64,000 bases of DNA. Origin: Cryptosporangium phraense. GTDB lineage: Bacteria; Actinomycetota; Actinomycetes; Mycobacteriales; Cryptosporangiaceae. The number at the start of each line of letters is the position of its first letter. The stretch's first letter is position 1. The notes beneath the pieces were generated by a model. That model searched no databases and was not told the origin of the DNA. It saw nothing but the letters and a program-made list of their open reading frames with translations. Shown here piece by piece: positions 15,142-32,242 of the stretch. The stretch covers positions 372,001 through 436,000 of the forward strand of contig NZ_VIRS01000002.1 of NCBI RefSeq assembly GCF_006912135.1, written 5' to 3'. Made by a program: the position numbers and the translations under genes.

Positions 15142-15263
15142 GGCCGGCAGTGTTGGCAAGCGAACGCTTCGGCCGTCGTGCGTCTGATCGAGCGGGGCGG
15201 GGATTCCCCGCAAGCTGAAGGCACACGGGGAACGGCCCCGAAGACTTCAGGAGGCTGGACGAT
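15142..15263 (+). promoter_or_regulatory. Micropeptide leader, copy A
   Basis: This is the conserved leader of gene A. It shares GGCCGGCAGTGTTGG, AAGCGAACG, AAGCTGAAGGCACACGGGGA and GGAGGCTGGACGAT with the other copies. The GAACGTTC palindrome of other copies is degenerate here (GAACGCTTC). A perfect 15-nt hairpin GCGGGGATTCCCCGC (15197-15211) replaces part of the usual structure. Homology to the copy D leader begins earlier, at 15121. Confidence 0.7.
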
Positions 15264-15398
15264 ATGAGCGGCTGCTACGACAACTCGTACGACTACTGCA
15301 ACGACAACTACTCGTACGACTACGACTGCCGGCCGCGTCGTCGCCACCACAAGCGTCGTCACCACAACGACTGCTGGGACTACAGCTACTGCAGCTGA
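15264..15398 (+). CDS. Cys/Tyr/Arg/His-rich micropeptide, copy A
   Basis: This 44-codon gene is one of six near-identical copies. The peptide starts MSGCYDNSYDYCNDNYSYDY, has a basic centre CRPRRRHHKRRHHNDC, and ends WDYSYCS. Cysteines are at 4, 12, 22, 37 and 43. There is no signal peptide or membrane segment. GGAGG lies 9 nt before the ATG. Codons are high-GC and strongly biased (TAC, GAC, CAC, CGT/CGC), suggesting strong translation. The same peptide, residue for residue, is encoded by copy E 16 kb away. Function unknown; metal binding, nucleic-acid binding or a structural/coat role are possibilities only. Confidence 0.85.
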   Translation: MSGCYDNSYDYCNDNYSYDYDCRPRRRHHKRRHHNDCWDYSYCS

Positions 15399-15697: not shown

Positions 15698-15825
15698 GGC
15701 CGGCCGAGTGTCGCCAAGCGAACGTTCCCGCCGTCGCCCGGGCGAACGAGCGCACGCCTGATCCCCGCGAAGCTGAAGGCACACGGGGAACACACCCTGG
15801 GACAACTTCTCGGAGGCTGGACGAT
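15698..15825 (+). promoter_or_regulatory. Micropeptide leader, copy B
   Basis: The leader has palindrome GAACGTTC at 15720-15727 and a second CGAACG about 20 nt later. Stem TCCCCG (15762-15767) / CGGGGA (15784-15789) encloses the conserved 16-nt loop CGAAGCTGAAGGCACA. GGAGG lies 9 nt before the ATG. The palindrome-to-ATG distance is 98 nt, the same as in copy F. Confidence 0.7.
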
Positions 15826-15957
15826 ATGAGCGGCTGCTACGACGACTCGTACGACTACTGCAACGACTACTCGTACGACTACGACTGCCGCCCGCGTCGT
15901 CGCCACCACAAGCGTCGTCACCACAACGACTGCTGGGACTACAGCTACTGCAGCTGA
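15826..15957 (+). CDS. Cys/Tyr/Arg/His-rich micropeptide, copy B
   Basis: This 43-codon member of the family begins MSGCYDDSYDYCNDYSYDYD, and its C-terminal 23 residues are identical to copy A. Relative to A it lacks one Asn in the CND(N)YSY segment and has D for N at residue 7. Cysteine order and the Arg/His centre are unchanged. An Arg codon differs from A only synonymously (CGC for CGG after Cys21). It carries its own leader and terminator, so it is an independent unit rather than part of an operon with A. Confidence 0.85.
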   Translation: MSGCYDDSYDYCNDYSYDYDCRPRRRHHKRRHHNDCWDYSYCS

Positions 15958-15967
15958 ATTCCTCACC

Positions 15968-16004
15968 GCGAAGGGCCCGGAGCGGAATGCTCCGGGCCCT
16001 TCGC
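15968..16004 (+). terminator. Micropeptide terminator, copy B
   Basis: A perfect 16-bp stem (15968-15983 with 15989-16004) surrounds the 5-nt loop GGAAT. It lies 10 nt after the stop and shares its core with all other copies. Confidence 0.85.
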
Positions 16005-16191
16005 CGCGTCGGGATGTTAGTGGTGCAGGATCCGTGGGCCTTATCGGCCAGCGCCCGCCCCGGCCGGCAGTACGGACTCCGCGGTGTGTTCGGCGGTGAT
16101 CAGCAGCGCCTGTGGCCGCCGCGACGACTGCAACTGAAGCCCCCACGAAGGGCCCGAAGCGAAACCGCTCCGGGCCCTTTGTCGTGGCCGA
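16005..16191 (+). pseudogene. Duplicated spacer with 3' remnant of a seventh micropeptide unit
   Basis: From about 16006 to 16125 the sequence repeats the DNA downstream of copy E (31651-31769) with only a few changes. It then ends in GACTGCAACTGAAGCCCCCA and a hairpin (16144-16186), matching the stop codon, 3' flank and terminator of copy F. Only the last few codons of the gene (reading D-C-N-stop) remain. The hairpin has point changes (CCCGAAGCG, TTTGTCG). This is best read as a deletion that removed most of an F-type gene downstream of B. Confidence 0.65.
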
Positions 16192-17441: not shown

Positions 17442-17570
17442 TCAGCTGCAGTAGCTGTAGTCCCAGCAGTCGTTGTGGTGACGACGCTTGTGGTGGCGAC
17501 GACGCGGGCGGCAGTCGTAGTCGTACGAGTAGTCATTGCAGTCGTACTGGTAGTCGTAGCAGCCGCTCAT
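17442..17570 (-). CDS. Cys/Tyr/Arg/His-rich micropeptide, copy C
   Basis: This is the 42-codon form. It begins MSGCYDYQYDCNDYSYDYDC and then matches the common basic centre and WDYSYCS end. It is the second gene of the D-C doublet on the minus strand and equals copy F except for the last residue (S instead of N). Differences from F elsewhere are synonymous (AAT/AAC Asn, CGC/CGG Arg). It has its own leader and terminator. Confidence 0.85.
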   Translation of the reverse strand: MSGCYDYQYDCNDYSYDYDCRPRRRHHKRRHHNDCWDYSYCS

Positions 17571-17697
17571 ATCGTCCAGCCTCCGTGAGGTTTGCGGGGC
17601 CGTTCCCCGTGTGCCTCTAGCTTCGCGGGGATCAGGCGTGCGCTCGTTCGGCCGCGCGACGGCGGGAACGTTCGCTTCCCAACACGGTGGGCCGGCC
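17571..17697 (-). promoter_or_regulatory. Micropeptide leader, copy C
   Basis: The conserved leader has GAACGTTC at 17666-17673, 95 nt before the ATG, the ATCCCCGCGAAGCT...GGCACACGGGGAAC element and ACGGAGGCTGGACGAT before the start. Distal similarity to the copy F leader (GGCCGGCCCACCGTGTT / GACCGGCCCACCGTGTT) is stronger than to the others. Confidence 0.7.
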
Positions 17698-17962: not shown

Positions 17963-18097
17963 TCAGCTGCAGTAGCTGTAGTCCCAGCAGTCGTTGTGGT
18001 GACGACGCTTGTGGTGACGACGACGCGGCCGGCAGTCGTAGTCGTACGAGTAGTTGTCGTTGCAGTAGTCGTACGAGTCGTCGTAGCAGCCGCTCAT
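17963..18097 (-). CDS. Cys/Tyr/Arg/His-rich micropeptide, copy D
   Basis: This 44-codon copy begins MSGCYDDSYDYCNDNYSYDY, with D at residue 7 where copies A and E have N. The remaining residues equal A. The third Arg of the RPRRR run uses CGT instead of CGC, a synonymous change. It is the first gene of the minus-strand D-C doublet and lies directly downstream of a small unannotated gene (18233-18412) and a VOC gene, all on the same strand. Confidence 0.85.
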   Translation of the reverse strand: MSGCYDDSYDYCNDNYSYDYDCRPRRRHHKRRHHNDCWDYSYCS

Positions 18098-18220
18098 ATC
18101 GTCCAGCCTCCGTGAGGTTTGCGGGGCCGTTCCCCGTGTGCCTCCAGCTTCGCCGGAATCACGCCCAGGCTCGTTCGCCCTCCCGACGACAGGAACGTTC
18201 GCTTCCCAACACTGCCGGCC
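18098..18220 (-). promoter_or_regulatory. Micropeptide leader, copy D
   Basis: GAACGTTC lies at 18193-18200, 95 nt before the ATG. The GAAGCTGGAGGCACACGGGG element and the following GGCCCCG can form a short CGGGG/CCCCG hairpin. The copy A upstream DNA matches this region and a further ~20 bp, as far as the stop codon of the small gene at 18233. Confidence 0.7.
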
Positions 18221-31340: not shown

Positions 31341-31465
31341 GCCGGCCCCCTCTGTTCGCAAGCGAACGTTCCTGTCGTCGGGAGGGCGAACGAGCCTGGG
31401 TGTGATTCCGGCGAAGCTGGAGGCACACGGGGAACGGCCCCGAGGACTTCAGGAGGCTGGACGAT
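31341..31465 (+). promoter_or_regulatory. Micropeptide leader, copy E
   Basis: GAACGTTC at 31364-31371 is 94 nt before the ATG. The GAAGCTGGAGGCACACGGGG element is followed by CCCCG, giving a CGGGG-aacgg-CCCCG hairpin (31428-31442). CAGGAGGCTGGACGAT precedes the ATG. Over 100 nt it is nearly identical to the copy D leader. Confidence 0.7.
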
Positions 31466-31600
31466 ATGAGCGGCTGCTACGACAACTCGTACGACTACTG
31501 CAACGACAACTACTCGTACGACTACGACTGCCGGCCGCGTCGTCGCCACCACAAGCGCCGTCACCACAACGACTGCTGGGACTACAGCTACTGCAGCTGA
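31466..31600 (+). CDS. Cys/Tyr/Arg/His-rich micropeptide, copy E
   Basis: This 44-codon copy encodes exactly the same peptide as copy A although it lies 16 kb away. One Arg codon is changed synonymously (AAG CGC CGT instead of AAG CGT CGT). It is the first gene of the E-F doublet, with its own leader and terminator. Identical product with silent divergence argues that the peptide is under selection. Confidence 0.87.
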   Translation: MSGCYDNSYDYCNDNYSYDYDCRPRRRHHKRRHHNDCWDYSYCS

Positions 31601-31611
31601 AATTCCTCACC

Positions 31612-31649
31612 GCGAAGGGCCCGGAGCGAAACCGCTCCGGGCCCTTCGC
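31612..31649 (+). terminator. Micropeptide terminator, copy E
   Basis: A perfect 17-bp stem (31612-31628 / 31633-31649) around loop AAAC starts 11 nt after the stop codon. Confidence 0.85.
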
Positions 31650-31984
31650 CGCGTCGGGATGCTAGTGGTGCAGGATCCGTGGGCCTTATCGGCCAGCGCT
31701 CGCCCCGGCCGGCAGTACAAACTCCGCGGTGTGTTCGGCAGTGATCAGCAGCGCCAGTCGCCGCCGCGACGACTGCCCCGAGCCGTGGTCGCTGGGCCAT
31801 TGAGCTGCCCCTCCTGGCGGATGTCTCTGATCCGACCCCCTGCCTGGCGTGCCGGTGAGCCCGATTCGAGGACAGGTGATCAACGCACGTGCTTGCAGAC
31901 CGGACAGGAACTGCGCCGCCAGTCCCGATCTCGAAGATCCGGACCCCGCCATCCAATCTCGTCACAAACCCGCTCCCGGCCACG
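31650..31984. other. Spacer between micropeptide copies E and F
   Basis: The first ~120 nt (to about 31769) repeat the DNA downstream of copy B. They keep an open frame (MLVVQDPWALSASARPGRQY) in both places, containing rare TTA codons, but with several non-silent changes. The rest shows no gene. I do not call a CDS. Confidence 0.4.
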
Positions 31985-32113
31985 ACCGGCCCACCGTGTT
32001 CGCAAGGGAACGTTCCCGCCGTTACGCGGCCGAACGAACCCACACCCGATCCCCGCGAAGCTAATGACACACGGGGAACACGCCCCAACAGAACATCACG
32101 GAGGCTGGACGAC
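31985..32113 (+). promoter_or_regulatory. Micropeptide leader, copy F
   Basis: It carries the longest palindrome of the set, GGGAACGTTCCC (32006-32017), with the core 98 nt before the ATG. It keeps the GATCCCCGCGAAGCT...ACACGGGGAAC stem and ACGGAGGCTGGACGAC before the ATG. Confidence 0.7.
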
Positions 32114-32242
32114 ATGAGCGGCTGCTACGACTACCAGTACGACTGCAACGACTACTCGTACGACTACGACTGCCGGCCGCGTCGTCGCCACCACAAGCGT
32201 CGTCACCACAACGACTGCTGGGACTACAGCTACTGCAACTGA
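32114..32242 (+). CDS. Cys/Tyr/Arg/His-rich micropeptide, copy F
   Basis: This 42-codon copy begins MSGCYDYQYDCNDYSYDYDC, has the common Arg/His centre, and ends WDYSYCN. It equals copy C on the other strand except for the final residue. Cysteines are at 4, 11, 20, 35 and 41. It is the second gene of the E-F doublet. The start, ribosome site and codon bias are as in the other copies. Confidence 0.86.
   Translation: MSGCYDYQYDCNDYSYDYDCRPRRRHHKRRHHNDCWDYSYCN

Follow-up and report, generated by a model that had tools for sequence, protein, structure and literature searches.

The long leader that precedes each micropeptide gene in this 64,000-nucleotide stretch of Cryptosporangium phraense DNA (hereafter the window) is, on our reading of the sequence, likely to be a promoter module followed by a short, ordinary 5′ UTR. 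The conservation of the leader is real and significant, and we interpret it as a shared promoter, probably activator dependent, that would define a genus-specific regulon. Its blocks have fixed spacing and invariant bases and are shared with unrelated genes, and no relative was found beyond the genus in the searches described below; from the sequence we infer a start site, a type of sigma factor, the existence and identity of an activator and a role for a hairpin at the 5′ end of the transcript. The original prediction had described the leader as a series of conserved blocks and had suggested both an operator and a regulatory RNA; its description is confirmed in part, and its interpretation is likewise partly supported.

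The window holds six micropeptide genes of 42–44 amino acids, with ATG codons at 15264, 15826, 31466 and 32114 on the forward strand and at 18097 and 17570 on the reverse strand, and all six have the common leader of ∼120 nt that had been described. The index gene (31466–31600, +) encodes 44 amino acids and has no Pfam, NCBIfam or PHROGs match. The other forward copies comprise promoters at 15149–15226, 15707–15784 and 31995–32072 with genes at 15264–15398, 15826–15957 and 32114–32242, respectively, and the reverse-strand copies comprise promoters at 17609–17686 and 18136–18213 with genes at 17442–17570 and 17963–18097. A GGAGG ribosome-binding site (31452–31456, +, in the index copy) lies 9 nt before the ATG in all six copies, the constant distance originally noted, and a GC-rich terminator-like hairpin follows each gene; that of the index copy resembles an intrinsic terminator and belongs to repeat family D6 (31615–31646, +). 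By eye, the downstream flanks at 15958–16130 and 31600–31760 look near identical, a sign of segmental duplication carrying flanking DNA.

Most of the individual blocks seen in these six leaders could be verified. The word GAACGTTC ends 94–98 nt before the ATG in every copy, one of which (15264) carries the degenerate form GAACGCTT; the exact word occurs five times in the 64 kb window, all within these leaders, with 0.47 occurrences expected from base composition. The near-invariance of the GAAGCT..GGCACACGGGGAAC block also holds in the six copies. A second CGAACG, claimed for all copies, is found in five, and copy 15264 instead has GATCGA, which is the commoner form across the genus.

The similarity between leaders is not a matter of chance, because the unit has 25 DNA matches in its own genome and the peptide has 58 matches in the genus. 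We extracted 43 leaders, after removal of one false open reading frame (ORF) from 44; divergent copies and copies cut by contig ends among the 58 peptide matches are not part of this set. A gap-free alignment took in 42 of the 43 leaders, a 133-column alignment took in 40, and 41 were folded. The 133-column alignment stays free of gaps through column 83; gaps first appear at column 84, and only beyond that point does the spacing to the ATG differ between copies. Upstream, the conserved blocks are TGTY (columns 3–6), CGAACGTT (13–20), CGT (26–28) and GATCGA (38–43). A variable stretch follows, then CGCGAANCT (60–68) and a conserved A at column 75; the start-codon context, GGAGGCTGGACGAC, is conserved as well. 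In the index copy, the upstream block (columns 1–46) occupies 31351–31396 (+), a region over which the 42 leaders align without gaps and which recurs before unrelated genes. It contains TGT (31353–31355), GAACGTT (31364–31370), CGT (31376–31378) and GAACG (31388–31392), which we read as putative activator sites plus the −35 region. The block spacing is shifted or lost in L021 and L022, both of which have a damaged gene, and in L160, for which no gene was found. The micropeptide of L021 is shortened to 30 amino acids with internal deletions, and the gene of L022 is disrupted after its first codons. For the comparison of blocks between promoters, 59 of 69 rows were used; those left out were decayed or shifted (L021, L022, L152, L157 and L166), near-duplicates or relatives (L075:9064, L080, L155 and L020) or, in one case, a repeated row.

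Within this alignment, two positions define a predicted −10 element. A64 and T68 are present in 100% of the 41 family leaders and C67 in 90%, which places the element at GAAGCT in the index copy (31413–31418, +), with A at −11 and T at −7. Column 75, 7 bp past this element, is a purine (A in 92% and G in 7% of the 41 leaders), and gaps set in only from column 84; we therefore predict that transcription of the index gene starts at A31425, giving a 41-nt 5′ UTR (31425–31465, +). In the other window copies, column 75 places the predicted start at 15223, 15781, 32069, 18139 and 17612. The predicted UTR measures 36–50 nt in 40 of 41 leaders and 25 nt in the remaining one. As described in parts of two reports on S. 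coelicolor, promoters there have a TANNNT −10 with starts 7–8 bp downstream, and UTR lengths peak at 30–39 nt (PMC7157823, PMC4895711). Two further candidates were considered and dropped. The extended −10 G (column 61) was not retained as a core position, being present in 95% of family promoters versus 46% of the others, and an ECF promoter of the form GAACGTT-N16-CGATCGA was set aside because the start implied by A64/T68 and by the column at which indels begin lies further downstream.

Upstream of the predicted −10, invariant GT, AC, GT and GA steps occur at columns 4–5, 16–17, 27–28 and 38–39, and are thus 12, 11 and 11 bp apart. This spacing of approximately one helical turn is what would be expected if one protein contacted a single face of the DNA. 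The elements GTT..GAAC (columns 4–17) and GTY..GATC (27–41) may be two sites of the same protein, centered near −64 and −41. The suggestion that the palindrome is an operator is thus supported once it is broadened: GAACGTT belongs to a set of blocks with constant spacing that resemble activator sites and also stand before unrelated genes.

The original prediction had further proposed that conserved CCCCG…CGGGG…CCCCG segments form mutually exclusive hairpins, as in a regulatory RNA, and here the sequences do not bear it out. By eye, CGGGG is present in all six window leaders, the upstream CCCCG in four and the downstream CCCCG in four, and copies 15264 and 17570 are the only ones with all three arms. 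Among the 42 leaders of the larger set, just 5 have the upstream arm, and both this arm and the conserved block as a whole precede the predicted start at column 75. A pairing of CGTTC with GAACG in copy 15264, which by eye had seemed compensatory, was rejected, since GATCGAGC aligns with GAACGAGC and the partner is out of register.

There is, nonetheless, a structured element at the predicted 5′ end of the mRNA, and it speaks for a cis-regulatory RNA (a riboswitch, an attenuator or a protein-binding leader) whose switching hairpins would control the micropeptide. In the window copies, the predicted UTR begins with ACACGGGGAAC and forms a hairpin, which in the index copy is CGGGG-AACGG-CCCCG by folding (31428–31442, +). 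A GC hairpin at this position occurs in 25 of 41 leaders, against ∼3.8 expected from shuffled sequences, L016 and L098 retain it with altered arms, and the conservation of the start-codon context could be taken in the same sense. However, its distribution is uneven: a hairpin of at least 4 bp is present in 14 of 16 leaders of G000, the genome of the window, in 4 of 4 of G001 and in 4 of 5 of G003, but in only 3 of 16 of G002, where the other 13 leaders lack it although gene and promoter persist. Folding of the 74 nt that precede the predicted start is no more stable than that of shuffles (mean z +0.39 over 41 leaders), and the mean z of the UTR is −0.71. Covariation analysis of 40 leaders (RNAalifold plus mutual information) gave weak, scattered structure and no covarying helix; among the 40 top-scoring column pairs, only four are complementary in at least 70% of rows, and they fail to line up as a stacked helix. 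Comparison of the 64 kb window with Rfam returned no match at gathering score. At E values up to 10, eight loci gave 15 sub-threshold matches, none of them in the leader: 14 cover the end of the gene or the terminator, and the other, to Xoo5 at L007, lies in flanking DNA. Finally, unrelated genes with the module have the promoter columns in common and a different UTR. We conclude that the leader is unlikely to be a regulatory RNA, and we give switching hairpins very little weight. The 5′-end hairpin may protect the mRNA or tune its translation; it does not appear to be needed in every species or to switch with a conserved upstream arm.

The promoter module is carried by a family that appears confined to one genus. 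The micropeptide unit has its 25 DNA matches within a genome of 8.46 Mb (87 contigs), and the 58 peptide matches fall in four genomes (21, 17, 10 and 10 per genome), numbers that are lower bounds because several contigs end inside a copy (C47, C60 and C75 of G000; C11, C21, C31 and C32 of G001; C52 of G003). Draft assemblies break at this family, which is therefore under-counted. A DNA search with the unit across 61 genomes matched the four genomes of the genus and none of the other 57, and the micropeptide has no match in the fifth genome of the bacterial family. When the micropeptide alignment was run against 296 genomes of the class, its own genome was matched and the other 295 were not. 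Scanning contigs of other genomes for the micropeptide, or for an exact pattern with 23 fixed bases, likewise gave no match beyond the genus; near genomes may be missing from that set. None of the micropeptides tried has a match in Pfam, NCBIfam or PHROGs, and literature searches turned up nothing on the micropeptide or the leader motif. One variant, the second copy of L016, is His rich.

Such a distribution raises the question of whether the unit is simply a mobile or repeat element, with leaders conserved because the copies are recent duplicates. Copies up to 96–98% identical, contigs that end inside them and the downstream flanks that by eye look alike at 15.96 kb and 31.6 kb would all fit. 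However, the leaders are conserved in blocks between spacers that diverge freely, which argues for selection and not only for recency, and unrelated orthologous genes carry the module in the same place in four of four genomes. No transposase or terminal repeat was noticed at the copies. We consider recent duplication, if anything, even less probable an explanation of the leader than switching hairpins.

The presence of the module, at the same spacing, before genes unrelated to the micropeptide favors the promoter reading, and at these genes the promoter columns are shared and the UTR is not. One case is the locus of a probably secreted protein, which has the module in all four genomes (L163, L164, L171 and L172). 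There, a Cys-containing ORF of 46–52 amino acids precedes a single-copy gene; by eye, the N terminus of the encoded protein resembles a signal peptide. In the genome of the window, the small ORF of this locus (L172, G000:C2:69285–69354) ends early at a stop, and the promoter and the secreted-protein gene remain. The module also precedes five of five DUF3558-like lipoprotein genes in the four genomes, the DUF3558 match lying under the Pfam cut-off (28.4 versus 34.1 bits). At the G000 lipoprotein gene, the model match covers columns 2–54 only, and GAACCT is seen by eye at columns 63–68. Further instances are a Tyr-rich peptide of 36–37 amino acids in two genomes (L158 and L173) and divergent relatives of the micropeptide (L169, L094, L099 and L100–L102).

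All 13 non-family promoters have A64, C67, T68 and G69, and at column 75 ten of them have A and two have G; nine of the set had been retrieved with R3, a model that itself covers the −10. Five partial R3 matches among 14 second-round sites were left out (L181–L184 and the second site of L083), of which L183 has both −10 bases. Searched against eight control genomes, R3 gave chance matches in all of them, mostly partial and with a best E value of 3.7e-5; the control sites L210 and L212 have no −10. The noise floor of R3 is thus not low, so single sites with E values from 1e-5 to 1e-3 stand on orthology and full-length fit and not on the E value. With another model, R2, 88 of 150 genomes of the order were matched at E values up to 0.1, four of these being the genus, and nothing beyond the genus fell below 2.7e-4.

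Some module copies stand apart from an intact gene. L155 (G003:C78:18786–18862) lacks the ORF between two CGATG words and consists of promoter, leader and terminator, and at L166 (G000:C1:467540–467604) and L167 (G000:C30:65708–65776) the promoter runs directly into a terminator-like hairpin with no gene; all three were judged by eye.

A partly independent test of the −10 is provided by a model, R1, built from columns 1–46 only. Its test set comprised 14 sites in the genus with E values up to 1e-3 and without the standard peptide. A64 and T68 are found together at the exact distance in nine of the 14, where base composition predicts 2.2% (binomial P = 2e-12), a test that is not fully independent because the nine include several decayed family relatives, such as L153–L155. 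Among weaker R1 sites (E values from 1e-3 to 0.05; all 24 ungapped, non-peptide sites), both bases occur in six (Fisher P = 0.02 versus 9 of 14). Four of these six (L164, L172, L168 and L173) are already module sites by fuller models, and a fifth, L214, resembles one. A smaller control, with 2 of 20 positive (P = 0.0014), is biased, as recognized module sites had been set aside from it. Of the five test sites without the −10, L160 keeps CAACCT shifted by a 2-base deletion, and the others look, by eye, decayed or coding. Three additional R1 sites lie outside the 14, being clear family copies that are disrupted or truncated by the end of a contig; the −10 is present in L014 and L020 and shifted by one base in L022. 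With these added, the count becomes 11 of 17 (P = 0.013).

The composition of the −10 and −35 regions bears on which sigma factor would read the module. The −12 position is G or C, never T, in all 54 promoters (41 of the family and 13 others), and 90–100% have C at −8. The −35 region does not contain NTGACC; columns 38–45 are mostly GATCGAGC in the family and GATCGTCC in several other promoters. Because T at −12 is missing and the −35 differs from NTGACC, a special sigma factor keeps some claim to the module: a dedicated alternative sigma, and not an activator, could recognize GATCG (near −37 to −33) and SANNCT (−12 to −7) as its −35 and −10, with the upstream blocks helping. These positions are indeed unlike TANNNT, and sigma-70 genes are plentiful in the genus, with 5, 10, 9 and 6 genes per genome related to a single query. 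In G002, moreover, a module copy (L165, G002:C1:3790795–3790870) precedes a sigma-70 (region 2) gene, at a distance of ∼115 nt from the predicted start. However, the models listed that copy in one genome of the four, and an alternative sigma leaves unexplained why TGT, GAAC and CGT, between −72 and −47, are so strongly conserved. We regard a dedicated sigma factor as unlikely, with clearly more in its favor than either the regulatory-RNA or the recent-duplicate explanation.

Our preferred reading, a promoter with an activator, can be set out as follows. Columns 1–46 (about −74 to −29) would bind an activator, probably in two units, of which one is centered near −64 and the other, overlapping the −35 region, near −41. 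RNA polymerase with a factor of the sigma70 family would then use a weak, GC-rich −10, SANNCT, and start at the conserved A of column 75. The predicted transcript would carry a UTR of 36–50 nt, often with a small 5′-end hairpin, followed by GGAGG, the micropeptide and the terminator. The same module would drive other genes in the genus that encode small or probably secreted proteins and so define a regulon, of which the many micropeptide copies would be the amplified part.

A broader proposal, to which we give a little less than an even chance, is that a genus-specific regulator, either a tandem-site activator or a sigma factor with the SANNCT −10, controls an undescribed regulon that includes the amplified micropeptide, the secreted protein, the lipoproteins and the other micropeptides. 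As part of the same tentative proposal, the micropeptide, rich in Tyr, Asp, Cys and Arg, would have been amplified to 10–21 or more copies per genome, each with a full promoter. If true, a large-genome actinobacterium would have a micropeptide response driven by dosage.

The analysis recasts a long leader as a testable promoter signature, which outlines a candidate regulon across four species and offers bait DNA for its regulator. For a micropeptide family with dozens of copies and no relatives found beyond the genus, the putative regulon partners are a first clue to function. A more general caution is that, as long as the transcription start is unmapped, conserved blocks upstream of micropeptide genes present in many copies can pass for riboswitches.

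The proposed arrangement can be compared with several known systems. At class II CRP sites, which are activator-dependent promoters, the activator adjoins or overlies the −35; like the module, such promoters have a degenerate −35, additional conserved bases further upstream and an intact −10. The actinobacterial LexA/SOS box is CGAAC-N4-GTTCG; it shares GAAC and GTTC half-words with the module, but their order and spacing differ, and a LexA-type dyad is not kept, as GTT precedes GAAC in the module and columns 7–9 are variable. In ECF promoters, the distance from AAC to TC is 16–17 nt, and no TC is conserved in the corresponding, variable stretch of the module (columns 33–37, beyond the AAC at columns 15–17). 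The invariant AAC is nevertheless shared with S. coelicolor sigma-E promoters, which have AAC in the −35 and TC in the −10 in the part of PMC6767563 that describes them. Promoters of the WblC/WhiB7 type, also activator dependent, combine, so far as PMC7157823 describes them, a degenerate −35 with extra conserved upstream bases and a retained −10, as the module does. Their motif, given there as GAAAWY placed 3 bp before the −35, differs from the TGTY...CGAAC...CGT...GATCG that the module spreads over 40 bp, and no GAAAWY-type motif is conserved in module columns 30–40. The ECF sigma-E, WblC and LexA motifs do not match the module. In contrast to promoters of the HrdB/SigA type (TANNNT / NTGACC, as given in a section of PMC4895711), the module has G or C at −12, no NTGACC and a long conserved upstream block; with them it shares A at −11, T at −7, a +1 purine 7 bp downstream and the usual UTR length.
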